Shown: piece by piece, positions 25,914 to 32,731 of the stretch
Layout: each line of letters starts with the position of its first letter
How positions within the stretch are numbered: position 1 is the stretch's first letter
Source: Streptomyces sp. NBC_01775
Lineage (GTDB): Bacteria > Actinomycetota > Actinomycetes > Streptomycetales > Streptomycetaceae
Assembly: GCF_035917675.1 (NCBI RefSeq)
Contig: NZ_CP109104.1
Coordinates: forward strand, 8,804,001-8,868,000
Reading direction: 5' to 3'
DNA: 64,000 nucleotides
The notes under the pieces: generated by a model
Seen by the model: the letters and a program-made list of their open reading frames with translations, nothing else
Told to the model about the DNA's origin: nothing
Database searches by the model: none
Translations under genes and position numbers: made by a program

Positions 25914-26458
25914 GAGTAACTCCTCGGGCGTAGGTGGCGCGGTGCGGGTGCTCTCGTCGAAAAGGCCACCAACACCACGCCGGTCAAGAATCCGAAATCC
26001 CCGTGCCGGGGTGGCGGCCCGGTGGCCGGGATCTGCTAACCCCGGCCACCGGGCCGCTTTAGCGAAGAGCGGCAGCAAGCCGCGCTGGTAATCTCACGCG
26101 CCACATTCCCAAGACGCCCTTTCTCCGATCAGGAGACGTTCGACAGCACGCTGAAGCGAAGCGCCCGTTGGACGGCGCAATACGCATCAGCACAGCTCAA
26201 CAAGGACGGAACCGTGTCCTTCCCGGTGAGCTTGCCGAGACTGTAGAGACGAATTCCGGCCGCACCAAACGAGCGTTCTCGGGCGCCGATCCAGGCCCGC
26301 TTCTGGCTTGGTGCGGCCGGAAACCCGCACTACTCTTCAGCGCGTACCGGCCCCAGCCCCCGAAACCCGAGGGGTAATTCGCCGGGCATTCCCTGGCACG
26401 CACCCGCCCCCTGCGGGGTCGGGCATGCGTGCACCAGTCCCTGAGAGAGAACCCCGTC
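25914..26458. promoter_or_regulatory. 545-bp divergent leader between the transfer operon and a methyltransferase
   Basis: No gene is supported here. The stretch separates the head of the leftward transfer operon from the rightward methyltransferase gene, so it must contain promoters for both. Its main structure is the 15-bp inverted repeat at 26254-26322. It looks less GC-rich than the flanking genes. An origin of transfer could lie here, but I can point to no relaxase site. Confidence 0.45.
26254..26322. repeat. Perfect 15-bp inverted repeat with 39-bp spacer
   Basis: TTCCGGCCGCACCAA (26254-26268) is repeated in reverse complement at 26308-26322. The arms are perfect and stop abruptly at both sides. 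The element lies 137 bp before the methyltransferase start, within the divergent leader. It may be a regulator site, a leader hairpin, or part of an origin of transfer. Confidence 0.7.
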
Positions 26459-27208
26459 ATGCCCCACACCCTGCACCGAGGCGATGCGCTGAGCGTGCTG
26501 TCCGAACTCCCGGACGCCAGCGTGGACGCCCTGATCACCGACCCGCCCTACAACTCCGGCGGACGCACCAGCTCCGAGCGCACAGGGCGGACCGCGAAGT
26601 CGAAGTACACCGCCGTGGACGCCGAGCACCAGCTCGCCAACTTCCCCGGCGAGAACCGCGACCAGCGCTCCTACGGGTACTGGCTCTCACTGCTGCTGAC
26701 CGAGGCATACCGGGCCACCGTCGAATCCGGCACCGCGCTGGTCTTCACCGACTGGCGCCAACTGCCCACCACTACCGACGCGTTGCAGGCCGCGGGGTGG
26801 ACGTGGCGGGGGATCGCCTCCTGGCACAAGCCGGTCTCCCGCCCGCAGAAGGGACGGCTCAAGCAGTCCTGTGAGTACATCGTCTGGGGCACCAAGGGCC
26901 CCGTTGACCCGGCCCGCAACCCCGTCTACCTCCCCGGCCTCTATCAGGCCAGCCAGCCCCGCAAGGGCCGGGTCCACATCACGCAGAAGCCGGTCGAGGT
27001 GATGCAGGAACTGGTGAAGATCTGCCCCGAAGCCGGCACCGTCCTTGATCCCTTCACCGGCTCCGGCTCCACCGGCGTCGCCGCCCTGCGCGAAGGGCGG
27101 CAGTTCGTCGGTGTAGAGCTGTCCGACCACTACGCCGACATCGCCGAACAGCGCATGGCGGCCGAGCTGACCCAGGACGACTTCGGCCTCGCCGGACCCG
27201 AAGAGTGA
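26459..27208 (+). CDS. Beta-class DNA methyltransferase (N6-adenine or N4-cytosine)
   Basis: 249 residues from ATG 26459 (GAGAGAA upstream). The catalytic motif DPPYNSGG lies at about residue 28. The SAM-binding motif DPFTGSGSTGVAALREG follows near residue 200, in the motif order of the beta class. It also has KPVEVMQELVKICP, typical of the region before motif I. No endonuclease gene is adjacent. Orphan enzymes of this type on mobile elements usually protect DNA from host restriction. It diverges from the transfer operon and ends at a strong shared terminator. Confidence 0.9.
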   Translation: MPHTLHRGDALSVLSELPDASVDALITDPPYNSGGRTSSERTGRTAKSKYTAVDAEHQLANFPGENRDQRSYGYWLSLLLTEAYRATVESGTALVFTDWRQLPTTTDALQAAGWTWRGIASWHKPVSRPQKGRLKQSCEYIVWGTKGPVDPARNPVYLPGLYQASQPRKGRVHITQKPVEVMQELVKICPEAGTVLDPFTGSGSTGVAALREGRQFVGVELSDHYADIAEQRMAAELTQDDFGLAGPEE

Positions 27209-27302: not shown

Positions 27303-27980
27303 TCAGGAGGCCGCGATGCTCCGCAGGATCAAGTCCTCGGCGCGCTCCAGATCGGCCTGGGAACGCAGGCTCACCTCGACGCCCGAGATCCCGAGGCAGC
27401 CGATCTCGGTCACGTCCCGGGTGAAGCCCTCCTCCAGCTCCACCGTCGCGGGATCGAGCTTCAAGTTCACCGCGACGACCTCCTTGCGCGGCAGCACCCG
27501 CAGAGAGGCGAACTTCTTCAACCGCCGATAGGTCAGGTAGTGCTGCTGCGGCTCCATCCACGCCCCCTCCGGCAGCAGCAGCCGCTCATCGACCGCGCCG
27601 AACAACTCCTTCACCTTCGCCGGAGCCCCCTCCAGCCGATGCTGCTGCACGCTCACCGCCGGCACCTGCTCCGTCGCGATCGAAGCGGTCGGTGCCTTGG
27701 CGCGAGAGGAAGGCCATCCGGCTCCGGCGACCGAGGCGACCAGCCGCAGCGTGAGCACGTCGTCGAAGACCCGGTAAGAGACCAGGTCGATCCGACGGTC
27801 GATCTCCTCGACCGCCACCGTGTCGTGGTACGTGAACTCCCCCGCCACGCACACCACCCGCGGGTTGCTCCAGTCCACCGCCCCGGCCGCCTCCGCACCG
27901 AGCCGGTCGGCCACCAGCCGCTCGAACTCATGGTGGTGATCCCGCAGCCACACCAGATACGACAGCGCCTGGTTGATGAC
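27303..27980 (-). pseudogene. 3' part of a PD-(D/E)XK nuclease-like gene (DUF5655 type), split by a mobile element
   Basis: Codons 83-307 of a gene whose first 82 codons lie at 32731-32486. The reading begins VINQALSYLVWLRDHHHEFE directly at the element junction. It continues IDWSNPRVVCVAGEFTYHDT and ends in a DUF5655-like domain (LLLPEGAWMEPQQHYLTYRR, ISGVEVSLRSQADLERAEDL). Directly upstream of VINQ the frame meets a TAG that belongs to the element, so this part cannot be translated with the first. It is probably inactive unless the element excises. Confidence 0.88.
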
Positions 27981-27981
27981 C

Positions 27982-27999
27982 TGTTGACTGAACTACTGG
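27982..27999. repeat. Left inverted end of the recombinase element
   Basis: TGTTGACTGAACTACTGG. It matches the right end (32467-32484, read inward) at 15 of 18 positions, including CTGAACTAC. It begins two bases inside the point where the interrupted gene stops matching. No target duplication is evident. Confidence 0.8.
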
Positions 28000-28051
28000 C
28001 GGAGTTTCTGCAGGTCAGTGACCTTGTGGTGGGGGCGTCGTTGAGTCGGCC

Positions 28052-29263
28052 GTGGAGGCATCGAGAGATCTGGCAGCCCTGTCCGTACCGCTGGTCGGGG
28101 AGCTGGTGGCCATGGATGATCCGTGGGATCCGTACCGGCTCATCGACCCGACCGGGGAATCGGTCGAGGGGGCTGGCGCCTTCCTGCGGGATCTGCAGGG
28201 AGCCGGTCGTTCGGCGGCGACGGCCCGTTCCTACGGGATGGATCTGCTGCGCTGGTTCCGCTTCTTGTGGGCTGTCGAGGTGTCGTGGGACCGGGCAAGT
28301 CGGATCGAGGCGAGGGACTTCTCCCGCTGGCTTCAGATCGCCGGCCAGCCGAGGCGTCCGCACTGGCGGTGCCCGAATGAGGCGGGCCGGTGGGCCGCGG
28401 GCGGGAAGCCGTACGCAGCGTCTGTGCGAGCGCACAGCGAGACGGTGCTGCGGAGCTTCTACGACTTCCACCGCGATATCGGCACCGGGCCGCTCCTCAA
28501 CCCGTTCCCACTGGACCGATCACGTCATGGCAGACGAGCGCATGCCCATCGCAACCCGATGGACCCGCCGCGCAACGAACGCAGTGGGCTCTACCGGCCA
28601 AGAGTGCCCAAGCGGGTGCCCCGCAGTGTCCCTGATGAGGAGTTCAACGAGATCTTCGCCCGGCTCCCGTCGCACCGAGACCGGGCCCTCGTCGCCTTCT
28701 ACATCTCCACCGGTGCCCGGGCCAGCGAGCTGCTCAGTACATGGCAGGCTGGCGTGGATCCGGGGCGCCAGCTGATCTCGGTGGTCCGCAAGGGCACCCG
28801 GGAAGTCCAGGAACTCCCGGCCTCGACCGACGCGTTCGTCTGGCTGCGGCTCTACCAGGTGGAGATGGACGATGCGGTCCCGCGCGGGCGGCACCTTCCG
28901 CTGTGGTGGACCCTGCGCTCGCCGTCGAGACCGCTGACCTATCACGCGGTTCACCGCATGTTCGAGCGGGCGAACACCAAGGCGGGGACCTCTGCGACGC
29001 TGCATGCGCTGCGGCACACCGCCGCCTACCGCATGGCCGAGGATCCCAGCCTGCCCCTCACCGATGTCCAATTCGTCCTCGGTCACGCCCAGTTGACCAC
29101 GACACAGCTTTACCTCACGCCCCGCAAGGAGGTGGTGATCCGGCGGCTGCTGGCCCACCATGCCGAACAGACACGGCAGGCAGCAGCCCGCATCGCGCCC
29201 CCTCCCGCAGCCGACTACCGGCCGGAGAGTCTCGATGTGCTGTTCGGGACCGGTACCCGGTGA
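28052..29263 (+). CDS. Tyrosine recombinase A of the 4.5-kb element
   Basis: 403 residues from GTG 28052; ATG 28112, behind GGGGAG, is a good alternative. The N-terminal SAM-like core-binding domain covers about residues 30-160 (FLRDLQGAGRSAATARSYGM, ASVRAHSETVLRSFYDFHRD). The catalytic domain has Arg in ISTGARASELL, the HxxR box in LHALRHTAAYRM, His in LGHAQLTTTQ, and the Tyr nucleophile in TQLYL. All expected catalytic residues are visible, so it should be active. Its stop overlaps the start of recombinase B. Confidence 0.9.
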   Translation: MEASRDLAALSVPLVGELVAMDDPWDPYRLIDPTGESVEGAGAFLRDLQGAGRSAATARSYGMDLLRWFRFLWAVEVSWDRASRIEARDFSRWLQIAGQPRRPHWRCPNEAGRWAAGGKPYAASVRAHSETVLRSFYDFHRDIGTGPLLNPFPLDRSRHGRRAHAHRNPMDPPRNERSGLYRPRVPKRVPRSVPDEEFNEIFARLPSHRDRALVAFYISTGARASELLSTWQAGVDPGRQLISVVRKGTREVQELPASTDAFVWLRLYQVEMDDAVPRGRHLPLWWTLRSPSRPLTYHAVHRMFERANTKAGTSATLHALRHTAAYRMAEDPSLPLTDVQFVLGHAQLTTTQLYLTPRKEVVIRRLLAHHAEQTRQAAARIAPPPAADYRPESLDVLFGTGTR

Positions 29264-31740
29264 CCGCCACCTTGTCGGCACGTGCCGACCGCGCACCGGC
29301 CCCCGGAGTTTCGCCTGGGCGCACTCGCGCACTGGCCGCCCAGCAGCGCTTCCCCGCCCGCACCGTTCCTGCCAGCTGGCCCGGCACCGAGCGCTCGCGC
29401 GCCGAGACGGCCCGGTTGCTGTCCCGTCCGCCCTACACGCTGGAGAACGCTGGTAGCGAACTGCACCACAAGCACGGCATCGTCATGGTGCTGGACTGGC
29501 TGGAAGACCAGCCCGGACAGACCTGGCAGGAACGGTGGCAGGCCAGCGGCATCGAGCAGGCCGGCGCCGCCTGGCGGCCGGTGATCAAGCAGTGGCTGCA
29601 CGAGCGCGGCCTGAAGGCAGCCTGGCGCATGCCGGTGGTGGGCAGGGCCCTGACCACGGTGATCAGCGCTGAGCTGCTGCGGCCGTCGGTGGATTGGCTG
29701 GCCGCCGGAGCCAGCCGCCAAGGTGTGCTGGTCCGCTCCATGGCGCACAGCCGTGATCCGCGCGGATTTGAGCGCCTTCGTGAGCTGGGCTCTCAAGCCC
29801 AGGGCGTGCGGCCGGGCGCTGTCAGCACGACGCTCTGCCGCAGCGCCCTCATCCTCGCGGCGAAGGGCGGCACGTTGGCCGACATCACCATCGGGGACGT
29901 CCTGGAGCTCCTCGATATCCAAGCCGTGGTGCTCAAGCGGGCGATGGCGGGGACCGAGGTGTTCTACCGTCTGCTGCACCAGTTCGGAGCCTTCGGAGAG
30001 GGCGCCCCGCCGAATCTGCGCGCGGTCCGCAACCTGGGACAGCGCACCCCGGAGGAGCTGATCGACCGCTACGGACTGATCTGTCGTCCCGTCCGGGATC
30101 TGCTGGTGGACTATTTGCGGGAACGCCAGCCCGCGCTGGACCACAACAGCCTGAAGTCCCTCTCCTACCACCTCGGCAAATGCTTCTGGCAGGACATCGA
30201 GCACCATCATCCCGGCGCCGACAGCCTCCGTCTCGCCCCGGACGTCATCGGGCAGTGGAAGCAGAGGATTCGCACCAAGGACAAGACCGTCACCGACCCG
30301 GACGGCCGGCGCACGAGCACCAAGGTCGAGAGGCTCAATCACCGTGACACGCTCACCCAGGTGCGGGCCTTCTACCTCGATATCGCCCAGTGGGCACTGG
30401 AAGACCCCGGTCGTTGGGGCCCGTGGGTGGCACCGAGCCCCGTGAGGGCTGACGAGTTGGAGAACCGCAAACACCAACGACGACGCAAGGCGCGGATGGA
30501 CGCCCGCACTCGCGAGCGCCTCCCGGTCCTGCCAGTCCTCGTCCGCTCGGTCGACCAGCGTCGCAGGGACGCGGCCGCGGTACTGGAAGCCGCCCGACAC
30601 ACCCGCCCTGGCGAGGTGTTCACCGCAGCCGGTCAGCAACTCGTACGCGCGGTGGTTCCGCACGGAACGGCCGGCCGGATCTGGGCCGAGGACCCGGACA
30701 CCGGCAAACGCCGCGATCTGGGGCTTGAGGACGAGCGGGCCTTCTGGACCTGGGCCGCGGTCGAGGTCCTGCGGAGCACCGGCATCCGCATCGAAGAACT
30801 ACTCGAACTCAGCCACCACAGCCTGATCCAATACCGGCTGCCCACCACCGGTGAGCTCGTCCCCCTCCTGCAGATCGTGCCGTCCAAGACCGATACCGAG
30901 CGGCTGCTGCTGGTCAGCCCCGAGCTCGCCGACGTCCTGAGCGCGATCATCTGCCGAGCCCGGGACAGCACCGGCGCGGTTCCCCTGGTCCGTTCCTGGG
31001 ACCGGCGCGAATGCGAGTGGCAGGCACCAGCCCCGTTGCTGTTCCAACGACGCATCTCCGGCGAGGCCCGCGCGTTCACCGACGAAACCGTCCGCACGAT
31101 GCTGGACCAGGCCCTCATCGCCACGGGCCTAACCGACGCTACTGGCGGCCCGCTGCGCTACACACCGCACGACTTCCGCCGCCTGTTCATTACCGATGCC
31201 ATCCTGAACGGACTGCCGCCGCACATCGCCCAGGTGGTCGCTGGCCATCAGGACATCAACGCGACTCTCGGTTACAAGGCTGTCTATCCCGAAGAGGCAA
31301 TCCAGGCACACGTGGCTTTCCTCGCCCGCCGCAGGTCCCTCCGCCCGAGCGAGGAATACCGCGTCCCCACCGACGAGGAATGGCAGGAGTTCCTCGGCCA
31401 CTTCGAACGACGCAAAGTCTCCATCGGCGCATGCGGCCGCGCGTTCGGTGCTCCGTGCATCCACGAACACGCCTGCGTCCGCTGCCCGATGCTCTGGCCC
31501 GACCCCGCCCAGCGCGACCGGCTTGTCGAGATCCGGGACAACCTCCTTGCCCGCATTGCCGAGGCCGAACGCGAAGGATGGCTCGGCGAGGTGGAAGGGC
31601 TTCAGGTGAGCCTTGCCGGAGCGGAGGAGAAGCTCGCCCAACTTGACGCACGACAAAGGCGCCAAAGGTCCACGGTCTTCCTGGGCATCCCCACACTGGA
31701 TCAGATCGTCGCCCGCACCAGCGATGTGAGCGAGCCTTGA
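29260..31740 (+). CDS. Large tyrosine recombinase B of the 4.5-kb element
   Basis: 826 residues from GTG 29260 (GTGA overlap). A long N-terminal region of about 450 residues has no motif I know. The catalytic domain lies in the last 350: Arg in RSTGIRIEELLEL, HDFRR, VVAGHQDINATLGY with the Tyr, and AVYPEEAIQAHVAF. A Cys/His cluster (CGRAFGAPCIHEHACVRCPM) near residue 735 suggests zinc binding. Size and layout are like the larger recombinase of Tn554-type pairs. It is presumably required together with recombinase A. Confidence 0.88.
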   Translation: MTATLSARADRAPAPGVSPGRTRALAAQQRFPARTVPASWPGTERSRAETARLLSRPPYTLENAGSELHHKHGIVMVLDWLEDQPGQTWQERWQASGIEQAGAAWRPVIKQWLHERGLKAAWRMPVVGRALTTVISAELLRPSVDWLAAGASRQGVLVRSMAHSRDPRGFERLRELGSQAQGVRPGAVSTTLCRSALILAAKGGTLADITIGDVLELLDIQAVVLKRAMAGTEVFYRLLHQFGAFGEGAPPNLRAVRNLGQRTPEELIDRYGLICRPVRDLLVDYLRERQPALDHNSLKSLSYHLGKCFWQDIEHHHPGADSLRLAPDVIGQWKQRIRTKDKTVTDPDGRRTSTKVERLNHRDTLTQVRAFYLDIAQWALEDPGRWGPWVAPSPVRADELENRKHQRRRKARMDARTRERLPVLPVLVRSVDQRRRDAAAVLEAARHTRPGEVFTAAGQQLVRAVVPHGTAGRIWAEDPDTGKRRDLGLEDERAFWTWAAVEVLRSTGIRIEELLELSHHSLIQYRLPTTGELVPLLQIVPSKTDTERLLLVSPELADVLSAIICRARDSTGAVPLVRSWDRRECEWQAPAPLLFQRRISGEARAFTDETVRTMLDQALIATGLTDATGGPLRYTPHDFRRLFITDAILNGLPPHIAQVVAGHQDINATLGYKAVYPEEAIQAHVAFLARRRSLRPSEEYRVPTDEEWQEFLGHFERRKVSIGACGRAFGAPCIHEHACVRCPMLWPDPAQRDRLVEIRDNLLARIAEAEREGWLGEVEGLQVSLAGAEEKLAQLDARQRRQRSTVFLGIPTLDQIVARTSDVSEP

Positions 31741-31822
31741 GCCGGTCCATGAAGCGTCCCTCAAGCCCGCCTGCTGTCTCATTACATACCGCCCATCGTG
31801 ATCACGGACTACCGTGCCGGTC

Positions 31823-32461
31823 ATGACCACGGACGACTGGCTGGCCGACACCCGAACCTCTTACGACACGGTCGCGGTCAGCTATGCCGTCCAAGTGCGC
31901 GATGCCATCGCCGGACACCAGTACCTTCGCGCGGCTCTGGCGTTGTTCGCCGACAACGTGCGGGCCGCGAGCGGTGGGCCGGTAGCCGATGTCGGCTGCG
32001 GGCCCGGACACGTCACCGCCCACCTGCACGAGCTCGGTGTTGACGCCTTCGGGATCGATCTCTCCCCAGGGATGATCGACGCGGCCCGGCGTGACCACCC
32101 CGGCCTGCGGTTCGAGGTGGACTCAATGACGGACCTGCACCTCCCGACCGCCGCAGTGGCTGGCCTGATCGCCTGGCAGTCATTGATCCACATACCTGAC
32201 CACGAGGTGCCGACCGTGTTCAGGCACTTCCACCGAGCATTGCGCCCAGGCGGACCACTGCAGCTCCTGTTTCACGTCGGCGACGAGTCCCAGTTGAAGA
32301 CTCAGGGCTACGGCGGTCACCCGATGAAGGTCCATGTCCACCGCCGTCAACCGGACCAAGTGGCAACCTGGCTGCGTGACGCCGGATTCGCGGTCGAGGC
32401 GCAGATGCTGCTCAACCGGGACGAGAAAGTTTCACACGCGTTTCTCTTCGCACGCCGATAG
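31823..32461 (+). CDS. Class I SAM-dependent methyltransferase carried by the element
   Basis: 212 residues from ATG 31823; GTG 31814 is possible. There is no Shine-Dalgarno sequence, so the mRNA may be leaderless. Motif I is VADVGCGPGHVTAHL, followed by FGIDLSPGMIDAARRDHPGL and the acidic post-motif DSMTDLHLP. The end is AEAQMLLNRDEKVSHAFLFA in style, typical of small-molecule methyltransferases. The stop lies only 5 bp from the right inverted end, so the gene is within the element and is its cargo or accessory gene. The substrate is unknown. Confidence 0.82.
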   Translation: MTTDDWLADTRTSYDTVAVSYAVQVRDAIAGHQYLRAALALFADNVRAASGGPVADVGCGPGHVTAHLHELGVDAFGIDLSPGMIDAARRDHPGLRFEVDSMTDLHLPTAAVAGLIAWQSLIHIPDHEVPTVFRHFHRALRPGGPLQLLFHVGDESQLKTQGYGGHPMKVHVHRRQPDQVATWLRDAGFAVEAQMLLNRDEKVSHAFLFARR

Positions 32462-32466
32462 CCCTA

Positions 32467-32484
32467 CCGGTAGTTCAGAGAACA
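32467..32484. repeat. Right inverted end of the recombinase element
   Basis: CCGGTAGTTCAGAGAACA on the plus strand, inverted relative to 27982-27999. The flank from 32486 resumes the coding sequence of the interrupted gene. Confidence 0.8.
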
Positions 32485-32485
32485 C

Positions 32486-32731
32486 GTTCTGATCCCGTGA
32501 GCGCTTGTACTCGATGACCACCGGAGTGCCGCTCTCGTCCAACCCGAGCGAATCCACCCGGCCCCGGTGCCGTCGCCCGGTCCGGTACTCCGAGGCCAGG
32601 AAACGAATGCCGAGCATCGCCTCCATATTGGCCTCGATCAGCGACTGCAGCTCCCGCTCCACCGCCACCGACGCACCCGAAATCTCCGTCGCCCGGCCAC
32701 CTCTGACCCGGAAGACCTTCAGGTCACCCAT
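32486..32731 (-). pseudogene. 5' part of the split PD-(D/E)XK nuclease-like gene
   Basis: Codons 1-82 from ATG 32731, with GGAGGAG just upstream, so expression signals are intact. It includes VERELQSLIEANMEAMLGIR and the nuclease core RGRVDSLGLDESGTPVVIEY-K. That core is a D-x14-E-x-K arrangement as in NucS/DUF91-type PD-(D/E)XK nucleases. After DQN the frame enters the element and ends at 32432 with about 17 foreign codons. The truncated product would keep the catalytic residues but lack most of the protein. Confidence 0.88.

Follow-up and report, generated by a model that had tools for sequence, protein, structure and literature searches.

Tn554 is a transposon whose target, att554, lies in radC. 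It is described, in PMC10214605, as a site-specific element with two tyrosine recombinases (TnpA and TnpB) and TnpC, imperfect inverted ends and no target duplication. The same text introduces the strand-biased circularizing integrative elements (SEs), which carry IntA, Tfp, IntB and Srap and in whose transposition the 6 bp of the old left flank pass to the new right junction and no empty site is left; it also reports a 6-bp footprint for Tn554-related elements and states that the formation of an empty site was not evaluated for Tn554 (PMC10214605). In actinobacteria, Tn554-related transposons (Famint36/41, e.g. pRHL2 and SCP1) carry one long and one normal tyrosine recombinase, and in the section of PMC3414803 devoted to them shared attB sites are only supposed. 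Here we compare with these systems a locus of Streptomyces sp. NBC_01775, located in a stretch of 64,000 nucleotides (positions 8,804,001-8,868,000 of the 9.06-Mb contig NZ_CP109104.1; hereafter the window). This locus very probably consists of a site-specific Tn554-related transposon inserted at codons 82-83 of a PDC-S18 nuclease gene, which would thereby be inactivated. While the element type is known, its repeated target choice is the interesting part.

The interrupted gene

The original prediction held that a recombinase element had cleanly split a single nuclease-like gene of the NucS/DUF5655 type at codons 82/83, and our analysis bears this out. Joining codons 1-82 to codons 83-307 (Table 1) gave a single open frame of 307 aa, and the two halves matched the PADLOC model PDC-S18 (PDLC04946) consecutively, with 140.7 and 252.5 bits. 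The Pfam family NucS_C was found on the first half below its cut-off (18.8 versus 24 bits) and DUF5655 on the second half above it (25 versus 24 bits). A database search with the joined protein retrieved 954 of 7998 scored candidates at E <= 1e-20, with P0001 as the best homologue (95% identity over all 307 residues) and with homologues from S. iconiensis (93%) and S. diacarni (92%); these 92-95% identical homologues are protein records only. Residues 30-280 were spanned without interruption, across the junction, by 118 of the 120 homologues listed of the 954, and the remaining two, which include the window's own second half, are of half length. Since the homologues cross the junction and the halves share one PADLOC model, there was neither a failure to align at this point nor a sign that the halves belong to different families. 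The gene is thus predicted to be a NucS-like PD-(D/E)XK/DUF5655 gene that is split between the E-x-K strand and the QxxxY helix. The length that the prediction implies for the insert, 4505 bp, also stood, but the position given for it, 27981-32485, is probably 3 bp off (27978-32482); this shift leaves the joined protein unchanged, because the displaced codon encodes Val83 whether it is read at the right junction (GTG) or at the left one (GTC).

EndoMS/NucS itself was considered and rejected for this gene, which has a DUF5655 domain and scores far under the NucS family cut-offs (29.2 bits versus 216, and 18.5 versus 252); a true nucS is intact elsewhere in the same genome. No solved structure related to the nuclease profile was found by sequence search, and a sweep of 150 relatives gave no intact gene more than 67% identical.

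Recurrent insertion at codons 82/83

The lineage was followed in named genomes, which gave 27 loci, and in sweeps of the genus that covered 295, 392 and 392 genomes, the genome sweep for the lineage using the short recombinase as query (labelled recA here, the long one recB). Fragments of the nuclease gene were found at 8 of the 27 named-genome loci (L052, L053, L055, L056, L057, L064, L066 and L067); L066 stands outside the junction counts, as its ends were not found. Altogether, 12 loci from separate assemblies carry the same lineage with at least one readable junction at codons 82/83. The element lies opposite to the gene in the window, L032, L055, L057, L064, L109 and L038 (orientation A) and along it in L052, L053, L056, L067 and L145 (orientation B). 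Both ends were found in six loci, with elements of 3813 to 5272 bp, and once the element was removed in silico, the frame of each of the six ran across the junction without a gap; elsewhere in the L064 gene there is one stop, and the L055 alignment reaches codon 117 only. The cargo varies, with a methyltransferase in the window, none in L032 (whose element of 3813 bp has no room for it) and other open reading frames elsewhere. When the left-end pattern was searched with at most one mismatch, 15 matches were obtained in 14 of 392 genomes, part of them outside the nuclease gene, compared to none for a reversed-pattern control.

Twenty regions were picked from broken or partial nuclease matches. 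Two of these carry the window lineage (L032 and L038), six carry a second lineage or its remains (see below), and 12 carry neither (L035, L036, L040-L042 and L045-L051) and show frameshifts, truncations or other neighbours. A nuclease match was present in 123 of 295 genomes, 83 of which have a copy covering nearly the whole query (by a hand count of the listing). Several of the sister insertions have decayed: the L064 gene has the stop, in L055 the second half is short and recB has a gap, L145 has fragments of the recombinases, and beside the gene of L038 only the left end was found; regular restoration of the gene is therefore disfavoured. No published description of this target pattern was found in a search of titles and abstract beginnings that left most subscription papers outside.

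Core placement at the junctions

All nine readable left junctions have NACCTG-TTGACTGAACT (first base G in seven, A in one and C in one), and all nine readable right junctions have AGTTCAG, two variable bases and AA, followed by target-compatible sequence. In orientation A, codon 83 reads as Val or Ile on either side (left 6/6, right 6/6; the left cores as Val codons are GTC in four, GTT in one and GTG in one of the six), so that this orientation does not discriminate between possible origins of the core. In orientation B, the left core would place Asp at codon 82 (3/3), a residue that occurs there in none of 29 intact genes at the codon level and in none of 118 proteins, while the right junctions give a Gly codon at this position (3/3), as do 18 of the 29 intact genes. 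Moreover, L032 and L053, which have similar targets and opposite orientations, point to the same empty core, GGCGTG, if the left core is ascribed to the element and the right one to its target. Because of the orientation B codons and the agreement of L032 with L053, this assignment is probably correct. The fixed outcome at the junctions in turn suggests that the exchange may be ordered and strand-biased, with the core staying left, unlike the SE rule.

Table 1. Positions of the interrupted gene and of the parts of the inserted element (window coordinates)
Feature	Position	Strand	Evidence
Nuclease gene, first half, codons 1-82 (through E74-Y-K76)	32486..32731	-	PDC-S18 profile 18-99
Same first half, counted with codon 83 from the right-junction side	32483-32731	-	
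Nuclease gene, second half, codons 83-307 (Q86xxxY90 motif and DUF5655 domain)	27303..27980	-	PDC-S18 profile 100-322
Inserted element (probable limits), 4505 bp, no target duplication	27978..32482	.	Comparison with sister insertions and intact genes
Left core GACCTG, probably element-borne	27978..27983	+	NACCTG at 9/9 readable left junctions in the nuclease gene
Left 11-bp arm TTGACTGAACT	27984..27994	+	Inverted-repeat pair
Right 11-bp arm AGTTCAGAGAA	32472..32482	+	Inverted-repeat pair
Probable target core CACGTT at right junction (codons 82-83, reading AACGTG on the gene strand)	32483..32488	+	Junction comparison
recA (label used here), short tyrosine recombinase, 403 aa	28052..29263	+	Phage_integrase 61.8 bits, Phage_int_SAM_1 27.6 bits
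recB (label used here), long tyrosine recombinase, 826 aa	29260..31740	+	Phage_integrase 44.5 bits, residues 494-677
Cargo S-adenosylmethionine (SAM)-dependent methyltransferase, from first ATG of frame	31823..32461	+	Methyltransf_25 69.6 bits on 31829-32458

The element and its relation to known classes

The actinobacterial class is recognised by adjacent tyrosine recombinases of which one is abnormally long (611-828 aa) and the other shorter, and the window element encodes such a pair, adjacent and with both members above the Phage_integrase cut-off. recB is 63.2% identical to the long recombinase of pRHL2 (over 96% of recB) and recA 73.9% identical to the short one. The TnpC-like protein of the second lineage had no tblastn match in the element at E <= 10, a comparison in which no TnpC profile was used. 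Given the gene pair, the protein sizes, the identity to pRHL2 and the absence of a TnpC match, sequence comparison places the element among the Tn554-related actinobacterial transposons without TnpC (Famint41 branch), a class already known. The element resembles that class in its gene pair, sizes and lack of TnpC, but the section of PMC3414803 on this class comes without ends, cores or target genes, whereas ends, a core rule and a repeated target could be read out for the window lineage.

recB has a long N-terminal extension and overlaps recA by 4 bp. recA resembles XerC/XerD-like chains in the PDB and shows R, HxxR and GH...Y motifs, which we take to be those of a tyrosine recombinase; for the long recombinase, no related solved structure was found by sequence search. 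Between recB and the right end, no likely gene other than the methyltransferase was seen, the ends of the element are imperfect inverted repeats, and both nuclease halves as well as the recombinase genes are open in the window. The closest relative found for the element has 92% DNA identity over 3890 aligned bases. A search for the long recombinase gave 193 plasmid records and none from the phage collection.

Three other assignments were rejected. Tn554 shares with the window element the two tyrosine recombinases, the site specificity, the lack of target duplication and the imperfect inverted ends; however, no match to a TnpC-like protein was found here, the target is the PDC-S18 gene instead of att554, and the core of Tn554 moves from left to right at each transposition, whereas here it seems to be left-bound. 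The SEs are similar in having one ordinary and one large recombinase, a 6-bp core and a strongly ordered core placement, but the host here is an actinobacterium, the core placement would run against that of the SEs provided that the left end is defined by recA, and no Tfp or Srap gene was seen among the open reading frames of the element (the recombinase pair and the methyltransferase only; Tfp and Srap profiles were not used). RIT elements have three tyrosine recombinases of 315-410 aa, compared to two in the window element, one of them of 826 aa.

Cousin elements in transposase genes

Cousins with the same arms sit in transposase genes, as was found when the two halves of each target were searched separately. 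Tn3 transposase targets (Pfam) were recognised in both halves for L113 and L152 and in one half each for L119 and L146, IS21 transposase targets (NCBIfam) for L110, L155 and L060, and a transposase target by Mu-transpos_C_2 alone for L061 and L062. The halves abut at positions 345 and 346 of the Tn3 profile in L152, and those in L113, which lies on its own 275-kb contig (G000:C2:219000-234000) and whose recA is 61-63% identical, correspond to profile positions 1-346 and 348-389. In a tree of 49 short recombinases, with targets automatically labelled for 19 and unlabelled for 30 (including L061 and L153) and composed without loci whose recA match was shorter than about 300 residues (e.g. L055, L056, L057, L067 and L145), the seven nuclease-target rows required two changes, compared to a mean of 6.7 after shuffling, and none of 500 shuffles was as low. 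Together with one plasmid element that lies in a Tn3 transposase, these rows form a supported clade (99/96), and the next nearest (100/100) are two IS21-type insertions and one of unlabelled target. The lineage seems to have passed from one conserved coding motif to another, those identified belonging mostly to other mobile elements, and the differing targets of similar elements would imply past movement.

Homologues of the cargo methyltransferase (30-44% identical, some partial) were observed near the cousins L112, L116, L117, L128 and L155, and this protein is possibly a recurrent cargo class.

A second lineage in the same gene

A second, TnpABC-type lineage or its remains was found in the nuclease gene at L033, L034, L037, L039, L043 and L044, with TnpA-like proteins in five, TnpB-like proteins in five and TnpC-like proteins in four of these six loci; the TnpC-like protein of L039 corresponds to DUF6262 (Pfam). 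Its ends, TACCGACC...GGTCGGTA, lie at codons 74-75, inside E-x-K, at a distance of about 20 bp from the codon 82/83 site. Its left junction could be read in L033, L034, L039 and L043 and the right one in L034 and L037, with a variant in L044. At L039, the window's own genome has a second copy of the gene, 91% identical over residues 1-75. The nuclease had three matches in this genome, and since all of them are partial, no intact copy was found there.

In L039, the TnpB-like gene (L039:9334-11954) was seen as two overlapping frames of 341 and 570 aa, and a similar split occurs in L033 and L037; it may reflect a frameshift, a programmed event or a real pair of genes.

Proposed mechanism and alternative explanations

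According to the reading that we prefer, the two tyrosine recombinases would form a circle with the joint AGTTCAGAGAA-GACCTG-TTGACTGAACT (11-6-11, from symmetry) and recognise a 6-bp target core in conserved active-site codons. Strand exchange would then keep the element core at the left junction and the target core at the right one, without target duplication, and the insertion would lead to the loss of nuclease function. A precise attL x attR exchange would restore the gene, as the original prediction supposes, but the SEs studied by experiment leave no empty site, and several sister insertions are decayed. The element's gain would probably be a conserved, widely available and non-essential landing site, and the disarming of a defence gene is a possible gain. 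Several points weigh against this reading. The 12 loci are not all independent, since L053 and L056, which have the same orientation and 96% identity over 3599 bases including the cargo, may represent one event; for other pairs compared, the recombinase regions agree to 84-93%. The core rule comes from few junctions, with only the three left junctions in orientation B and the L032/L053 pair discriminating, and L145 was found with a pattern containing ACCTG, so that these five bases are not independent there. In addition, the first core base varies and the left cores of cousins differ (e.g. CTTCTG and GACATG), the 6-bp limits are drawn from symmetry while the junctions fix one exchange point and not two cleavage sites, and the nuclease and defence activities of PDC-S18 are predictions.

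The few junctions and the uninformative orientation A leave some room for a cut-out/paste-in cycle like that of integrative and conjugative elements, for which the 11-6-11 layout, suited to an Xer-like exchange, would also speak. Here the heteroduplex core would be resolved randomly and the constant left core would be an accident of sampling; this we consider improbable in view of the left NACCTG and the target-compatible right side at all readable junctions. Programmed interruption, in which the element is held in the gene and excised under development or stress to switch the nuclease on, has well-known examples in the skin and heterocyst elements, and the clean junction, the open halves and the intact recombinases would agree with it, as would the restoration of Val83 by a precise exchange whichever core stayed. 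However, both orientations with unrelated or no cargo at the same site, the sister elements in transposase genes and the decayed copies (L064, L055, L145 and L038) make it very improbable. The notion of an assembly artefact or a chance juxtaposition of unrelated fragments is suggested by general caution only, and since the same junction recurs in the 12 loci from separate assemblies and the reversed pattern was not found once, its probability is negligible.

PDC genes have been put forward as candidate phage-defence genes (PMC11514479), which raises the question whether the site is preferred because an inactivated defence nuclease helps transposons or other mobile DNA to establish. Two lineages strike active-site codons of one and the same candidate defence gene, the two copies found in the window's genome are each broken, and in its fold the protein is similar to NucS and, with less clarity, to the nucleases of Shedu and Hachiman. 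Against such selected disarming, sister lineages occupy conserved transposase codons (Tn3 and IS21), pointing to target choice by sequence conservation, a literature search for PDC-S18 by name found no paper, and intact-looking copies are common (83 of the 123 genomes with a match); we regard it as unlikely. Only tentatively can a broader proposal be made, namely that two Tn554-type lineages have independently specialised on the active-site codons of the nuclease, where landing disarms defence, and that one of them switches to IS21/Tn3 transposase codons by fixed-core, strand-ordered integration, unlike the moving core of SEs and Tn554.

For a class whose target and mechanism are open in the literature found, the site-specific Tn554-related insertion in the window offers a target and ends that are both defined, along with natural replicates for either orientation, so that circle formation, strand bias and target choice become testable in ordinary Streptomyces. 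In addition, a candidate phage-defence gene appears to have been lost repeatedly through site-specific insertion in its active-site codons, twice in this genome, and in annotation such fragment pairs should be treated as one interrupted gene.

Further observations

L035 (G115:C28:18500-23000), one of the regions with neither lineage, has a +1 frameshift exactly at core codon 83 (GGGGTTGATG versus GGGGTGATG in paralogues), for which an excision scar or an error in sequencing could account. Defence-type genes were noted a few kb from partial homologues in two other such regions, an AIPR protein in that of L045 and a DndB-like protein in that of L040. In the window itself, the interrupted gene faces a convergent DNA N6/N4 methyltransferase gene (26429-27208, plus strand; N6_N4_Mtase 103 bits; type II MTase by PADLOC).

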